Source: Paracoccaceae bacterium
GTDB taxonomy: Bacteria; Pseudomonadota; Alphaproteobacteria; Rhodobacterales; Rhodobacteraceae
Assembly: GCA_022823605.1 (NCBI GenBank)
Contig: JAJEHS010000008.1
Span: 248,001-312,000, forward strand
DNA length: 64,000 bases
Reading direction: 5' to 3'
Positions 13,740 through 49,854 of the stretch are shown here, piece after piece (position 1 is the first letter of the stretch; every line of letters begins with the position of its first letter). Made by a program: the position numbers and the translations under genes. Under the pieces are notes generated by a model. The model was not told where the DNA came from, did not search any database, and saw only the letters and a program-made list of their open reading frames with translations.

Positions 13740-14265
13740 TGAAAGATACTCTTGGTATAAACCATGGAATTAACAAAGTACGATTGCAGATTTGGAATAG
13801 AGAGTTTCAAAGGGAAATAGGGTGCCCACAACCATTCAAGGGCTGAGTGCAAACCCTGATGTTGAAGATCCCGATATCGGTAATTTTTTCGATACATTTG
13901 TATTGATGTTTTATGGCAAGTATTGCCAAAAAATGAATATAATTTTACCTAGCTGAATTATCGGAAACCATACATTGTTAGCGATATCGAGTCAATTTCA
14001 TATTATGGTCCCAACCTCTGATTAGAGAGTGGAATTAATTTCAAGTTACATTAGCCAGTGCATGTCATTCCACAAATTCCGGAAATGAGCAAAACTGCCG
14101 GAGAAGTCGAGACCTGTCAAGATGTAGATTTGATCTTGACTGAACTGATGTTTTGACTAACTTTTGTTAACCCGCTTGGTCAGGTTAAGGATGTTGTGGT
14201 GAAAGCATGAAAGCACCTTAACCATTGTAATCTACAGGTTTTTTTGAGGAGTGATCAGGAATATC
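13740..14265 (+). promoter_or_regulatory. 526-bp gap with structured leader before the peroxiredoxin gene
   Basis: No gene is seen. Near the peroxiredoxin end there are two inverted repeats: GTCAAGAT/ATCTTGAC (14116-14123, 14133-14140) and GGTTAAGG/CCTTAACC (14183-14190, 14216-14223). TTAACC at 14167-14172 could pair with the same GGTTAA, making the two stems mutually exclusive. TTGACT (14136-14141) and TAACTT (14158-14163), 16 bp apart, could form a promoter. In that case the first repeat overlaps the -35 as an operator. Confidence 0.4.
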
Positions 14266-14838
14266 ATGTTAAATCTTCAGGAAGTTGACTGGAGTTCGTT
14301 ACCCGAGCCAGGTGATGATGGGGCAGCGAATCATCTATCCGGGACAGTTATGCCAAATGTGGAATTGCTTTCAACGGATAATGAAATAGTAAATCTTGGC
14401 AAACTTGAGGGCTGGTCTGTCCTCTTTTTCTATCCAATGACAGGTCAGCCTGGTACACCATTACCTGATGGATGGGACGAGATACCCGGTGCAAGGGGAT
14501 GTACTCCACAAGCCTGTGCATTCAGGGATTTGGTCAAGGAACTAACCTCGAAGGGGGTCAGGGCAGTTTATGGGATTTCCACTCAAACCACCGCATATCA
14601 GGTGGAAGCAGTCAAGAGGCTTCACCTTCCATTCCCATTGCTCTCTGATTCTGATCTGATTCTGACAAAAAGATTGCAACTGCCGACCTTCAGAGTCAAG
14701 GACATGGTACTCATCAAAAGATTAACGCTGGTTCTAAAAAATTCGGAAGTGAAGCGGTTATTTTATCCGGTATTTCCACCTGATCAGAATCCAGCGGACG
14801 TGATCAAATTCCTCGATTCAAGTCATATTGAGTCATGA
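14266..14838 (+). CDS. Peroxiredoxin / AhpC-TSA family protein (PrxQ-like)
   Basis: About 190 residues of the thioredoxin-fold peroxiredoxin family. The motif GARGCTPQACAFRD carries a likely peroxidatic cysteine (Cys79) and a second cysteine five residues later (Cys84), the GCTxxAC pattern of PrxQ/BCP-type two-cysteine enzymes. Before it, WSVLFFYPMTGQPGTPLPDGWDEI has an inserted loop compared with canonical PrxQ. It would reduce hydroperoxides using a thioredoxin-type donor. ATG 14266 is preferred over the in-frame GTG at 14251, because AGGA lies five bases before it while the GTG abuts GAGGA. The leader contains inverted repeats. Confidence 0.82.
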   Translation: MLNLQEVDWSSLPEPGDDGAANHLSGTVMPNVELLSTDNEIVNLGKLEGWSVLFFYPMTGQPGTPLPDGWDEIPGARGCTPQACAFRDLVKELTSKGVRAVYGISTQTTAYQVEAVKRLHLPFPLLSDSDLILTKRLQLPTFRVKDMVLIKRLTLVLKNSEVKRLFYPVFPPDQNPADVIKFLDSSHIES

Positions 14839-15034
14839 ATATATGACAATTCTTTGCAGGAATGAAAATTCCAAGCAAAAAATTGCCAAATGTTGATTTC
14901 TGCACTTGATTTATTGCCCAAAAAAATATAGAGATAATTTGCAAACGCGTTCGAGAGGAACAACTGCTTTTGGATAGCAAGTGCCTTATCGGTTCCTTTA
15001 CTCGCCTTTGCACAAAAAAAGGATCGAGGAACGT

Positions 15035-16249
15035 ATGAATAGTAAATCAACATCTTCCCTAAGCAGCAATGGCTCGGGTTCTTCCAAGGAGGGCACCCCT
15101 GTACGGTATAACGATGTAAGTACCCTTGTTTCAAGAGACATTAAACTTGATTATGGCAATGTACTATTGGTACCGGGTAAAATGACAAGTGTTACCAGCC
15201 GAAAACTCGTGAACCTGATTTGCCGGATGGATTTTGAGCGAACCGATGATTCGTATTATGAAGGTATTCCGATCATGGCTGCCAACATGGATGGCGTCGG
15301 TTCATTTGACATGGCTGATGCCTTGATCAGTCATCGGATATTTACCTGTCTTGCAAAAATGCATTCCGAGGAAAATCTCGTCAAATTCTTTTCAGGAGAT
15401 TCCCAGCGTCGTAATTATTGTGCGGTCACGGTAGGATTAAGACACCAGGACAGGGAAAAGTTCAGACATGTGCATGAACGTTCCGGTCCAATCAAGTTTG
15501 CATGCCTGGACGTGGCCAATGGTCATACCCAACGGTTTGTGAGTTTCCTGAAGGACTTCAGAAGCGAATTTCCCGATGTTGTCATCATTGCCGGAAATGT
15601 GGTCACTCCGGAACAGACCGAAATACTTGCCAAGGCTGGTGCCGATCTCGTGAAAGTGGGTATTGGCGGTGGCAGTGTTTGTGAAACCAGAATCAAGACC
15701 GGAGTAGGCTACCCACAGTTTTCAGCCGTGCTGGAATGTGGCCAGGCAGCCCGTGAGGCTGGTGCCAGAATAGTAGCTGACGGTGGTTGTACTTGTCCCG
15801 GTGATGTAGCCAAGGCATTGGCCGCGGGCTCATCTTTCGTTATGCTGGGTGGTATGTTCGCCGGTCACGAAGAAGGGGGTGGCCGGATCATCACCAGGAG
15901 ATTCAATACTGGTGAAATCAATGGCGATGGCAAACCGATATTGAAGGAATCCAGATTCGTGGAGTTCTACGGCATGAGTTCCCAAATTGCCAATGACAAG
16001 CATTTTGATGGTTTGCAACCCTGGAAGACAAGTGAAGGTCGTGAGGTTCTCCTTCCTTTCAAACCATCCATTAATGAAACCGTACAGGATTTGCTCGGTG
16101 GTTTGCGGAGTACCTGCACCTATCTTGGAGCAGAAAATCTGGTTGATCTTCCCCAACAGGCAAGGTTTGTACAATGCCACGATACCCACAATCGGGTCTT
16201 CGAGGATTCCCCGATTTCCGATCACTCCATAAGTTCGATGCTTATCTAG
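15035..16249 (+). CDS. guaC: GMP reductase
   Basis: About 404 residues, a TIM-barrel enzyme of the IMPDH/GMPR family. Catalytic Cys216 lies in GGGSVCETRIKTGVGYPQ, and VADGGCTCPGDVAKAL followed by FVMLGGMFAGHEEGGG is the GMP-reductase version of the phosphate-binding part. No CBS domains are present, unlike most IMP dehydrogenases. It converts GMP to IMP with NADPH for purine salvage. GAGGA sits four bases before ATG 15035. The first 20 residues are a Ser/Gly-rich tail absent from compact GMP reductases. It is convergent with adk. Confidence 0.9.
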   Translation: MNSKSTSSLSSNGSGSSKEGTPVRYNDVSTLVSRDIKLDYGNVLLVPGKMTSVTSRKLVNLICRMDFERTDDSYYEGIPIMAANMDGVGSFDMADALISHRIFTCLAKMHSEENLVKFFSGDSQRRNYCAVTVGLRHQDREKFRHVHERSGPIKFACLDVANGHTQRFVSFLKDFRSEFPDVVIIAGNVVTPEQTEILAKAGADLVKVGIGGGSVCETRIKTGVGYPQFSAVLECGQAAREAGARIVADGGCTCPGDVAKALAAGSSFVMLGGMFAGHEEGGGRIITRRFNTGEINGDGKPILKESRFVEFYGMSSQIANDKHFDGLQPWKTSEGREVLLPFKPSINETVQDLLGGLRSTCTYLGAENLVDLPQQARFVQCHDTHNRVFEDSPISDHSISSMLI

Positions 16250-16349
16250 GAAAGGTTATTGGTACCAAGGCACTTTTTTGTCTGCCTAAACACCCTGTCA
16301 AGTGAATATTGCGGGCTATCGTGATTTGCTACCGACAGGGATAGCTGGT

Positions 16350-16991
16350 TCAGCTAGCCTGAATTGTTGCTTCAATTCGTTCTGAAATTTCCTCAATCGA
16401 ACCGACGCTTGAAACATATTGCAACAATCCCGAACGGTGGTAATAACCGGTGAGGGGAGCTGTTTTCTGATAATATTCCAATAACCTCGTTCGGAAGGAT
16501 TCCTCATTGTCATCCTTCCTTTGTATCAAATCACTACCACAGACATCACAGATACCCTCAACCTTTGGTGGTTGATTGTTTTTGTGGAACATTGCTCCAC
16601 AGTTGATACAGGAAAGCCTGCCGACAATTCGGTCAATCAATCGATCGACATCAACCGTAAGCTCAATGACCATGTCAACCTTGGCACCTGCCTGGTCAAG
16701 TTGTTCCTCCAGTGAATCAGCCTGATTCAGGGTACGGGGATATCCATCAAAAATAAAACCGGAATTCTTTGATTTTAATTTTTCCCTGATCAGGGAATTG
16801 ATGATCTCGTCGGTTACCAGCTCGCCAGCATCCATGATTTTGGCAACTTTTTGACCTATGTCGGAACCCGACTTGACGGCTTCCCTGAGCATGTCACCGG
16901 TGGAAAGTTGAACCAAGCCCAGGTTTTTGACAAGTATCTTGGCCTGGGTTCCCTTTCCGGAGCCGGGAGGACCAAGTAAGATCAGGTTCAT
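16350..16991 (-). CDS. adk: Adenylate kinase (zinc-binding lid)
   Basis: A 213-residue nucleotide kinase catalysing ATP + AMP to 2 ADP. It has the P-loop GPPGSGKGTQ at residues 7-16, the GYPRTLNQADSLE AMP-binding segment, and a long LID domain. The LID carries two Cys pairs, SCINCG and ICDVCG, forming a structural zinc site as in Gram-positive and many alphaproteobacterial enzymes. The start overlaps the secY stop by four bases (ATGA). It is the last gene of the ribosomal supercluster here: rpsM, rpsK, rpoA and rplQ, which usually follow, are missing. Confidence 0.97.
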   Translation of the reverse strand: MNLILLGPPGSGKGTQAKILVKNLGLVQLSTGDMLREAVKSGSDIGQKVAKIMDAGELVTDEIINSLIREKLKSKNSGFIFDGYPRTLNQADSLEEQLDQAGAKVDMVIELTVDVDRLIDRIVGRLSCINCGAMFHKNNQPPKVEGICDVCGSDLIQRKDDNEESFRTRLLEYYQKTAPLTGYYHRSGLLQYVSSVGSIEEISERIEATIQAS

Positions 16992-32558: not shown

Positions 32559-37095
<4,537 letters not shown>

Positions 37096-37106
<11 letters not shown>

Positions 37107-40100: not shown

Positions 40101-42333
40101 GGAGTGAACGGTAGATTTCCAGAAGCCCTGTCTTGCGGTCATAACATTTGTCCAGGAACATGGTATTCCGGATGTAGGGACCTACGGATAGGTGGTCTAT
40201 TTCCAGCAGCGACAATTCTTCAAAACCCTCATCAAGGAGGACTCGAAGCAATCCTCCCGAGGGATTTCCATTCTCATCGAATTGACAGGACAATTCATCA
40301 CCGGCTTCAGCCAACACGATACCGGTTTCCTCGTCGATCATGTCCCTGCCGATATATCGATCCGTGATGCGGTCGCTTGCAACCGCAACTTCAAGCTTTC
40401 TATCCTGTTCTTCAAATCCCTTGACCATTTTTCTGGTAATACGGGATCCGATCGGTACAACAACCTCACCGGTTTCACTGTCAAGAATATTGTCCTCGAC
40501 ATTGACCCCGATCTTTTCCTGATAGGCAAAATCGGTTACCCATTTCAATTCCTCGGGAATGAAGTTCACCACCGTTTCACCCTGATTGGTGCCAAGTTTG
40601 ATCGGAACGCTGTAACCCCCAATCAGGGCTCCGTCCTCGCTACTGGCAGGAATATCCGGAGTTTGGTCTGTTTCCTCGCTCTTCAGCTTATCGGCTTTCC
40701 GCTTGATCGTTTCCTCAAGTTCAACAAGTCCATACAGGAGTTCATCGGCATTGAGTTCGAACTTGTTGTTGTCCAGATGAATGCCCAACTCCTTGGAGAC
40801 AACCAGATTAACTTCATTGCCGGAACGATTGGAAACCATACCCGAATCGGCATTATAGATATTGAAGGTCGGTACCCTGAAGCGCCAGACTTTCTTGAGC
40901 ATGGTTACCAGCAGTTTACGACCACCGTCAGAAAATTCACTGGCCAGATTGTCGGTACCCACCAACTCGGGACCGGATTCCTTCTTTTTGATGGAATTTC
41001 TTTCACTCTTGGAGGCCAGGGAATCATTGTAAACATACAGGTTGATCTCTTGGGTGGAGGGGTCTTCCTTTTTCTTCGGGGCAAAATAGGCAAGTATCTG
41101 ATTCAACGGTATCAGAAGGGACCAATCCTCAAGGTCCTGGATATGCTTGTATTTTGCAGGGGTCAATTTAACTCCTGCCTTGGCCAATACTTCATCGGTA
41201 TGATAATTTACAATGTTGAAGTTTGGTGTGACCCTTTGCCACCTTTGGGGATTGAAGTCCTCGATGAGATAGTGACCACTGGGACTTACTTTCCGGCTTT
41301 TGGGAGTTGACTGCTGTCGAAAGCTGCTTTCCAGGTACTCAAGGTAGTCCTCATCGATTTCATCGGCTTCACCGGCTCTTTCCAAGGCAGTGGAGAGATT
41401 CCCCTGATCAAGGCTGTCATGCATGATCCTGAGTTTGGCACCACCAAATTCATCACTCAACTTTTTAAGTCGATAGGGTGAAATCTTTTCACCGGCAGGA
41501 GCTACGATTTCCCCTGTTTCAGGTGAAATCAGATCGTAATTGGGTACGACATTACGCCAATTGTCCCTTTGAAAGGTAAATTCCCAGGTTGCGGGTTTTC
41601 TCCGCAATCTGAAACTGGTGGAATCATAGAAGGATTCCATGATACTTTCCTGGTCCATGCCAAGGGCAAAGAGGAGGGTTGAAACGGGAAGTCTCCTCTT
41701 GCGGTCAACCCGGGCATTGATCAACTCCAATTCGCCGAGTGCCTTGTCTTTTTTCAAGCCGAACTCAAACTCGATCCAGGAACCTCTTCCTGGAAGAATC
41801 TGACAGGTATAAAGACGTTTGCCGGTTGCATGGGTGGAATAATTGAAAAAGACACCGGGGGAACGGTGCATCTGGGAAACCACGACTCGTTCGGTACCAT
41901 TTACAATAAAGGTTCCGTTGTCAGTCATGAGGGGGATATCACCCATATAGACCTTTTGTTCCTTGCTGTTCCGGAAGGTTTGGTTGCCGGTTTCATTGTC
42001 AACATCATAAATGTTCAGAAGGAGCTTGACCTTCAATGCACCGGCATAGGTCATGTCCCTTTGCTGACATTCCTCGACGTCAAACTTGGGTTCTTCGATT
42101 TCGTAACCCTCGAAGTACATTTCGGTCATCCCGGAGGCATCCCTGATCGGAAATACAGATTGGAACACGCCCTGAAGTCCCATACCATCTGTGTGCTCGG
42201 GTCCTTCACCGGAATTCAGGAACAGGTCATAGGATTGTTTCTGAATTTCAATCAGATTTGGGAGAGGGGCGACAGCGTTGATTTTTTTGTAGGACCTTCG
42301 GTATCGGTTGCCACTAGACTTCATCTGCTTCAT
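37096..42333 (-). CDS. rpoB: DNA-directed RNA polymerase subunit beta (strongly enlarged)
   Basis: About 1745 residues from ATG 42333 (AAGGG eight bases upstream; a longer open frame to 42507 covers the rplL gap and is not expected to be translated). The E. coli subunit has 1342. Core motifs are normal: the rifampicin pocket [11 protein letters not shown]...[13 protein letters not shown] carries sensitive-type residues, and the C-terminal region [17 protein letters not shown] and [24 protein letters not shown] is intact. The excess sits between about residues 222 and 720 (498 residues versus about 115 in E. coli). There the usual two copies of a D-TGE-V--AG--I-type unit appear as about five. 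Confidence 0.97.
40198..41547 (-). repeat. Amplified protein repeat unit inside rpoB
   Basis: About five diverged copies of a roughly 40-residue unit are encoded at 41547-41422, 41232-41107, 40875-40750, 40506-40378 and 40356-40198. Their openings read [80 protein letters not shown] and [20 protein letters not shown]. The first three are preceded by W-R/Q spacing elements (NWRNV, RWQRV, VWRFR). The copies are too diverged for recent slippage. Confidence 0.8.
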
Positions 42334-48471: not shown

Positions 48472-49854
48472 GTGGAAAGCACAATAGACTCACAGAAAGT
48501 AGGCATTCTGGAGCTCATTAGTAAGCACCCAAATGGCCTTTCCAGAGGAGAAATAAAAAAACAATTACCGTTCTCGATAAATTATAAAACCCTTCAAAGA
48601 CGCTTGTCTGACCTGATAGAAGAAGGAAAGGTAAATAGGACTGGAAATAGAAAATCTACCAGATATTATCCCTTAAAAGCAGCAAGTATTAACAATATAG
48701 GACAAATTGTCCCTAAAAATGAAGAAATCTTTAGTCAAAATAGCTTAAACAAACTTAAATTCCTAGATAGACCTGTACATACTCGTAAATTTGTGTCCTA
48801 TAAAAGAGAATTTATTGAAAGTTATGAGCCAAATGTATCATTTTATGTCCCAAAAGATATCCAGGTGTCTCTGTCATCAAAAGGAAAATTACTTAAAAAT
48901 AACCTAGAAGTTAGTACATACAGACGGATTTTTGATTACGAACGATTATTAATTGATCTTTCTTTTAACTCTAGTCGATTGGAAGGTAATACCTATTCAT
49001 TACTGGATACGGAAAAATTATTGAATGCAGGTATCTTCGCTGTTGGAAAAATGTCAGAAGAAACTGTTATGGTAATTAACCACAAGGAAGCAATTTCATT
49101 TCTGTTGGAAAACGTTCAAGAAATTGATTTGAATAATTACACAATTTATAATCTTCATAACTTGCTTTCGGCAGATTTGATCAAGAATCCTGATGCTAGG
49201 GGAAAAATTCGACAAATTGAAGTTTCAATAAGACAATCCACCTACCAACCTATAGATAATCAATTTCAATTGAAGGAATTATTTGAACTTGTTCTTATTA
49301 AGGCTAGGAAAATCAAAGACCCATTTGAACAAAGTTTCTTTATTCTAATTCATTTATCTTATTTGCAAGCTTTTGAGGATGTAAACAAACGGACCTCCCG
49401 GCTTGCTTGTAACATACCATTTATCAAGAATAATTTTTGCGCAATGAGTTTTACCGATGTACCTCGTGACGGATATATCAGGGCACTTTTGGCTATCTAT
49501 GAGAAAAACGAAATTGAACCAATGCTGGATCTATTTTGTTGGGCCTATTCACGTTCTTGCCAAAAATTACGAGTATTGATAGAGACAACGAACGAAATTG
49601 ATCCCTACAGGATCAAAACGCGTATACATAGGAGGAGGGTGATGGGGGAAATTATTTTATATGGCTGTCATGGCCAGAGCTTAGAAGCACATATAGAAAG
49701 CTACTGTAGATCTATGAAGCTTGAAGAATCTGATAAATTTATGGCAATCACCTTGACGGAATTAGATTCCCTGCATGAAGGAAATATAGTTGGACTTGGT
49801 GTTTCACCAGAGGAGTTTAATTCCTGGTTGGAAATGGAGAAAATGAATAGGTAG
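48472..49854 (+). CDS. Fic-domain protein with N-terminal winged helix, catalytic His missing
   Basis: A 460-residue protein (GTG start). Residues 1-65 form a winged-helix-like domain (GILELISKHPNGLSRGEIKK...). A class-II-type Fic inhibition motif SSRLEG lies at 167-172. The Fic core motif at 299-310 reads QAFEDVNKRTSR, so the catalytic His of HPFxDGN(G/K)RxxR is Gln and the first Gly is Val. The subfamily with FEDVNKR sequences is widespread. AMP transfer by the usual mechanism would be impaired; a sensing or DNA-binding regulatory role is inferred. The gene is much more AT-rich than its neighbours, suggesting transfer. Confidence 0.85.
   Translation: MESTIDSQKVGILELISKHPNGLSRGEIKKQLPFSINYKTLQRRLSDLIEEGKVNRTGNRKSTRYYPLKAASINNIGQIVPKNEEIFSQNSLNKLKFLDRPVHTRKFVSYKREFIESYEPNVSFYVPKDIQVSLSSKGKLLKNNLEVSTYRRIFDYERLLIDLSFNSSRLEGNTYSLLDTEKLLNAGIFAVGKMSEETVMVINHKEAISFLLENVQEIDLNNYTIYNLHNLLSADLIKNPDARGKIRQIEVSIRQSTYQPIDNQFQLKELFELVLIKARKIKDPFEQSFFILIHLSYLQAFEDVNKRTSRLACNIPFIKNNFCAMSFTDVPRDGYIRALLAIYEKNEIEPMLDLFCWAYSRSCQKLRVLIETTNEIDPYRIKTRIHRRRVMGEIILYGCHGQSLEAHIESYCRSMKLEESDKFMAITLTELDSLHEGNIVGLGVSPEEFNSWLEMEKMNR

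Follow-up and report, generated by a model that had tools for sequence, protein, structure and literature searches.

Enlarged SI1 and SI3 inserts in the RNA polymerase of a Rhodobacteraceae clade in which no DksA was detected

The role of lineage-specific RNA polymerase inserts is a long-standing question, and the 64,000-nucleotide stretch of DNA analysed here (the window) raises it for a beta subunit of unusual length: what are the additional residues, which genomes share them, and what else has changed in the same polymerase? As originally predicted, RpoB was about 1745 residues long; the frame 42333-37096 (-) translated to 1745 aa, whereas the 20 ordinary relatives aligned with it, with starts assigned by script, had RpoBs of 1360-1393 aa. 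The segment from GMDQ to YIRNT spanned 500 aa in the window RpoB and 139-152 aa in 20/20 ordinary RpoBs in the alignment. With a typical insert of 151 and a typical RpoB of 1378 residues as the reference, ~349 of the ~367 surplus residues fell in betai4. The further claim that the excess lies in one segment held nearly in full, as the alignment with the 20 relatives placed almost all of it in residues 225-724. This alignment and the PDB matches, which fell on the RpoB inserts of 7ye1 and 3lti, located the insert between shared regions at the position of betai4 (SI1) in the beta2/lobe domain. The insert had a net charge of -17 over residues 225-656 and of -12 in unit B, and an acidic surface is likewise reported for betai4 of E. 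coli (PMC2939025). The coordinates of all features are listed in Table 1.

Table 1. Features of the RpoB and RpoC genes in the window, with protein residues and window coordinates.
Feature	Residues	Coordinates	Strand	Support
rpoB, beta subunit	1745 aa	37096..42333	(-)	Pfam RNA_pol_Rpb2 domains, TIGR02013
RpoB lobe cluster of clade-specific changes, before the insert	150-209	41707-41886	(-)	
Expanded betai4 / SI1 insert	225-724	40162..41661	(-)	alignment with 20 ordinary relatives
BBM2-like unit A1	244-304	41422..41604	(-)	43.8 bits; hhalign 98.6% to ancestral A
Acidic linker A1-A2, net charge -9	305-343	41305..41421	(-)	
Unit A2	353-422	41068..41277	(-)	24.4 bits; hhalign 98.1% to ancestral A
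Unit A3, most diverged copy	471-552	40678..40923	(-)	hhalign 91-93% to ancestral A
Unit A4	595-655	40369..40551	(-)	26.2 bits; hhalign 98.2% to ancestral A
Unit B, second ancestral BBM2 unit	656-717	40183..40368	(-)	60.5 bits; hhalign 99.7% to ancestral B
rpoC, beta-prime	1515 aa	32559..37106	(-)	
Beta-prime rim-helix stretch, densest clade-specific changes	668-703	34998..35105	(-)	
Beta-prime SI3, first SBHM	956-1034	34005..34241	(-)	
Beta-prime SI3, extra SBHM	1093-1158	33633..33830	(-)	hhalign 99.1% to ordinary SBHMa
Beta-prime SI3, last SBHM	1182-1233	33408..33563	(-)	

The ordinary alphaproteobacterial betai4 consists of two units, A and B, and an HMM was built for each from 13/20 ordinary RpoBs, the other 7 being missed by the cutting pattern. 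The unit A model recognised A1, A2 and A4 with the scores given in Table 1, against 9.0 bits for the best of 1000 shuffled inserts, and the unit B model recognised B, against 5.7 bits for the best of the same number of shuffled inserts. At 2.7 bits with the unit A model, A3 did no better than chance (1000 shuffled inserts). In profile-profile comparisons, the probability that linked A3 to ancestral A varied with the direction of the comparison, as listed, and that to A1 was 92.5-94%; the real scores of 35-41 in these two comparisons exceeded the best of 40 column shuffles each, which was 16. A2 and A4 scored 65-73 and A3 scored 35-38 with ancestral A, and no column shuffle (40 per controlled pair) rose above 18. 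Some copy-to-copy pairs were weak (A2-A3, 31%; A3-A4, 22%, by hhalign), so the case for A3 stands on A1 and ancestral A. When profiles were searched against 177,635 PDB sequences, the RpoB insert of 7ye1 was the top match for the A2 group (E 4.9e-7), followed by three designed proteins that matched via a 12-residue motif, and was also the top match for A4 (E 1.3e-5); A3 gave no relevant match in this search.

In the window insert, A4 was joined to B as ancestral A is to B. These sequence comparisons indicate that the insert is made of four copies of unit A, with A3 weakly supported, and one copy of unit B, and its anatomy, A3 excepted, is secure. The original prediction had read about five diverged copies of one unit here; the number of five stood, but the copies are not equal, being four of A and one of B. 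A TGE motif was found in A1 and A4, and the corresponding positions were TDE in A2, SGM in A3 and TGI in B. One to six tandem BBM2 units are the predicted range for betai4 (PMC2939025), and the five units of the window insert, with the weakly supported A3 among them, lie inside it.

To what extent is this architecture shared? A sample of 41 genomes was searched for RpoB, nine of which belong to the genus of the window, and all six full-length RpoBs seen in the genus were expanded. Five of these (G000, G002, G008, G006 and G004) measured 1742-1752 aa and contained five units. The sixth, that of G007, measured 1911 aa and contained seven, with A2 in three copies; here A2c scored 9.1 bits and A3 4.4 bits, against a shuffle best of 9.0, and A2 and A2c were linked at 95.5% by hhalign. 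G003 had the seven-unit pattern by motif, again with A2 three times, and by score A2, A2b, A4 and B were clear, A1 was marginal, and A2c and A3 were not clear. Seven units in G007, and in G003 by motif and partly by score, would exceed the published range. In G001, rpoB was split across two contigs with a 97-99% match to the five-unit form, and in G005 contig C197 (L040) ended where the RpoB insert begins.

Beyond the genus, 261/295 family genomes matched the RpoB core, and among the matches listed frames of 1809 aa came from two genomes of the window's own genus only. The A-unit model found a match in 269/289 class genomes, among the matches listed mostly in one to three places; among those listed, G385 and G522 had four each and G404 had five, in a frame of 1368. 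Two candidates for a long RpoB elsewhere were rejected: G022, with a frame of 1550, has a protein of 1377 aa from its start, and the RpoB of G357, with a frame of 1734, is ordinary, the length being due to an upstream in-frame stretch. The other long frames among the matches listed were those of G275 (1602) and G273 (1508), which are frame lengths alone. A scan of named genomes with short exact peptides returned four loci in three metagenome bins, all called Rhodobacteraceae; a sponge habitat for the clade found no confirmation in a search.

In the tree, the 8 genus RpoCs fell on one side of a branch with a support of 100/100, and G005 took the deepest position within the genus (94/87, subject to a long-branch warning). 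DNA repeats of unit length were found neither in the window rpoB insert nor in that of G007; what repetition was left at the DNA level was, in the window, a 9-base triplet array (41351-41377) and, in G007, a single 20-base pair at 75%. Because no unit-length DNA repeat remains, the duplication is old, and a recent duplication was rejected on the same ground. In one genus-level Rhodobacteraceae clade, betai4 grew from A-B to A1-A2-A3-A4-B by old in-frame duplication of its first BBM2 unit, and a subclade (G007, and G003 by motif) has a seven-unit betai4. The units, the alignment, the distribution and the tree all support the proposal, made from the sequence of the window, that the E. coli betai4/SI1 unit was amplified long ago and specifically in this lineage.

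For G000 compared with the two relatives nearest to it, dN/dS was 0.13-0.16 for A1-A4 and 0.03-0.04 for the core, and in wider comparisons dS was saturated or nearly so. Single units gave dN/dS values of 0.03 to 0.52, with few substitutions each. These ratios point to arrays that evolve under purifying selection, in an insert that evolves ~4x faster than the RpoB core; the RNA polymerase of the clade evolves fast overall.

A second insert, SI3 of beta-prime, was also found to be enlarged. Its span was 189-199 aa in 22/22 ordinary RpoCs; six genus RpoCs reached 300-307 aa, and those of G007 and G003 reached 376-379 aa. G001 was left out of the comparison as its RpoC is split. The extra SBHM of the window RpoC (residues 1093-1158) had no aligned residue in 22/22 ordinary relatives. 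Two extra segments, termed ex and ex2, were compared with the ordinary SBHMa by hhalign; the match of ex is that given in Table 1 for the extra SBHM, and ex2 matched at 96.1%. Against the genus SBHMa, ex scored 87.3 compared with 19.8 for the best of 40 column shuffles, and ex2 scored 49.6 compared with 20.1, which identifies the extra segments as homologues of SBHM. In this clade SI3 contains three or four SBHM units, compared with the usual two. Counting beta and beta-prime together, the relatives had 2+2 units, whereas the number was 5+3 for G004 and the window's group and 7+4 for G007 and G003; the RpoC of G005 had three SBHM units. The RpoC expansion sits in the same window as the RpoB expansion and was absent from the original prediction. 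With the first ATG taken as the start of rpoC, its frame shares 11 bases with that of rpoB (37096-37106), and by coordinates the overlap is equal in G002 and G008.

We also found that the beta-prime rim helix was changed in the clade at otherwise invariant positions. By alignment, residues 668-703 of the window RpoC correspond to the rim-helix region of E. coli (666-701), with residue 682 at the position of N680. A change was called clade-specific when the residue was invariant in 22 ordinary relatives and different in the genus proteins, with at most one exception among them, and 35 of 635 invariant RpoC columns contained such a change. Seven of the 35, N680 among them, lay within the 15 invariant columns of the rim-helix stretch (hypergeometric 3.9e-6; 0/1000 scan permutations). 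In an odd-one-out control, this stretch had 0-2 changes per ordinary genome (n=22) and 7-9 per genus member (n=8); the ordinary genomes included the long-branched G022 (1/22) and G028 (2/16). The control is low in power because the ordinary genomes offer so few changes overall, the totals being 55-80 per genus member, which are not independent of one another, and 0-22 per ordinary genome. At the N680 position, the 8 genus RpoCs had Q in four, K in two, R in one and N in one (G005), and K681 was kept in 7/8, with M in G004. N680 and K681 are part of ppGpp site 2, and the N680A K681A double change is reported to abolish ppGpp binding but not DksA binding (PMC6488371). In RpoB, 12/45 clade-specific changes were clustered in residues 150-209 of the lobe (1/500 permutations).

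In E. coli, DksA is described with its globular domain on the rim helix, its coiled coil on the SI3 linkers and its C-terminal helix on the lobe/SI1 (PMC7822876), and TraR is described as contacting SI1 and SI3 (PMC6970531). The DksA/TraR zinc finger (PF01258) was found in 0/9 genus genomes, compared with 16/16 other family genera sampled, and a full-length DksA profile had no match in 9/9 genus genomes at E 0.001. A match of E 0.10 in G003 was rejected as a DksA remnant, as it runs antisense to a 432-aa frame that we take to be a transporter permease. Among 296 family genomes drawn at a completeness of at least 95%, the DksA profile was positive in 291, those without a match being G000, G002, G053, G232 and G602; outside the genus, G053, G232 and G602 were the 3/294 family genomes without one. 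At E 1e-10, 255/289 class genomes had a match and 34/289, the window's own included, did not. G040 (93% complete) likewise had no DksA match, yet it had an ordinary RpoB frame of 1401 and an unchanged rim helix; DksA loss is therefore not sufficient. Losses of two other components were considered and rejected: GreA_N was present in 41/41 genomes, which speaks against a loss of Gre factors, and RelA_SpoT was present in 39/41, including 9/9 genus genomes, so a ppGpp synthetase has been retained. Francisella is also reported to be without DksA (PMC9304144).

From these observations we infer, with a probability of roughly 55%, that the DksA/ppGpp face of the polymerase was remodelled in co-ordination after the loss of DksA. 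DksA loss would have released the surfaces that DksA bridges, namely the rim helix, the SI3 linkers and SI1, and the lobe insert, the trigger-loop insert and the rim helix would then have been remodelled together, in one clade. The released surfaces may have been re-used: the longer SI1 and SI3 arms may by themselves position the beta lobe, which is the DNA loading gate, or alternatively they may carry a lineage-specific factor. A release of joined surfaces by DksA loss is the most economical account. The link between the inserts, the rim helix and DksA is a correlation from one lineage, and it amounts to one evolutionary event, however many genomes represent it. A counter-point to the DksA-loss reading is the N680 kept in G005, the deepest-placed member of the genus. 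A stronger form, in which the SI1 and SI3 arrays would act in cis as a replacement for the trans-acting DksA and move the lobe and the trigger loop, is in our judgement doubtful. If true, initiation control would be DksA-independent, and the stringent response would have been redirected to ppGpp site 1 or to different targets.

Co-ordinated remodelling has to be weighed against three other explanations. That an assembly or annotation artefact accounts for the enlarged rpoB is extremely improbable: several genus assemblies are fragmented, contigs of G005 and G001 end at or within the insert and rpoB of G003 is spread across two contigs, but separate assemblies have a like architecture and the frames are unbroken across 1742-1911 aa. 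Assembly error is unlikely because five further genomes have full-length expanded genes, that of G007 on a single contig. A non-adaptive accretion, in which DksA loss left the rim helix and the SI1 and SI3 surfaces unconstrained and these insertion-tolerant inserts kept tandem duplicates that have no specific role and stay folded only to avoid harm, has a modest chance of being correct. E. coli polymerases with deletions or insertions in betai4 are reported to support growth (PMC2939025), the rate of the insert relative to the core fits such a process, and so does the enlargement of both inserts in one clade. The dN/dS of the A units is nevertheless still low, none of the six full-length genes has a broken frame, and E. 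coli without betai4 is reported not to grow at 42 C and to grow slowly at 30 C (PMC2939025).

A docking site for regulators at this region is plausible by analogy, as SI1 is a known docking surface (PMC7822876, PMC6970531); DksA, the factor known to dock there, was not found in this clade. We consider it unlikely that the arrays are a docking arm for a lineage-specific regulator, or a phage-escape surface, and that the loss of DksA is coincidental. Such a coincidence could occur, given the family genomes outside the genus and the class genomes that also lack a DksA match, but the changes sit in the very parts that DksA and TraR touch, namely lobe/SI1, SI3 and the rim helix. The idea that DksA-type factors use such inserts for docking and as lever arms is testable via unit number, DksA and the rim helix across close relatives, and this clade and its relatives offer natural polymerases with 2, 5 and 7 units.

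Upon comparison with known systems, parts of this architecture were found to have precedents. E. coli betai4/SI1, which is dispensable region 1 and contains two BBM2 units (PMC2939025), lies at the same beta2/lobe site with A and B recognisable by sequence; in contrast, the clade has five or seven units with only A multiplied, and its insert exceeds that of ordinary relatives by ~350 to 520 aa. The BEAN domains of RNAP-beta type 4, and of type 4* with its additional multidomain insertions (PMC11515920), resemble the clade insert in sequence by the type 4 site and by the TGE of A1 and A4, whereas clade units A2, A3 and B are without the TGD/E motif. In that source, type 4* is named in Armatimonadetes, and the word "Alphaproteobacteria" is absent from its main text. 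Cyanobacterial SI3, with nine added HABAS domains (PMC11515920), also grows by units of its own fold, but the clade adds one or two units, enlarges SI1 too and has beta-prime as one chain. The lobe/SI1, SI3 and rim helix of the E. coli face that binds DksA and TraR (PMC7822876, PMC6970531) were all identifiable in the clade; unlike E. coli, the clade has no detected DksA, a changed rim helix with N680 replaced in 7/8, and enlarged SI1 and SI3. Tandem BBM2 units in betai4 (PMC2939025), type 4* insertions and SI3 growth (both PMC11515920) were thus already known separately. A literature search, which covered Iyer 2004 and Lane and Darst 2010 via citing papers, returned no report of this expansion, nor of both inserts enlarged in a DksA-less clade.

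The surroundings of the rpo cluster were also inspected. A general inflation of proteins was not apparent by eye in the neighbouring translation genes; the proteins that we take, by eye, to be EF-G, S7, S12, L1, L11, L7/L12 and NusG measured 705, 156, 123, 232, 142, 132 and 177 aa, respectively. Inspection by eye of the frames of at least 200 aa in 1-29500 turned up none that resembled rpoA. Near 13740-16350, there are what we assume to be adk and secY-like genes, followed by a presumed IMP dehydrogenase/GMP reductase-like gene in place of rpoA. A 460-aa protein at 48472-49854 (+) adjoins the ribosomal/rpo cluster and contains the stretch FEDVNKRTSR, which is presumably Fic-like.
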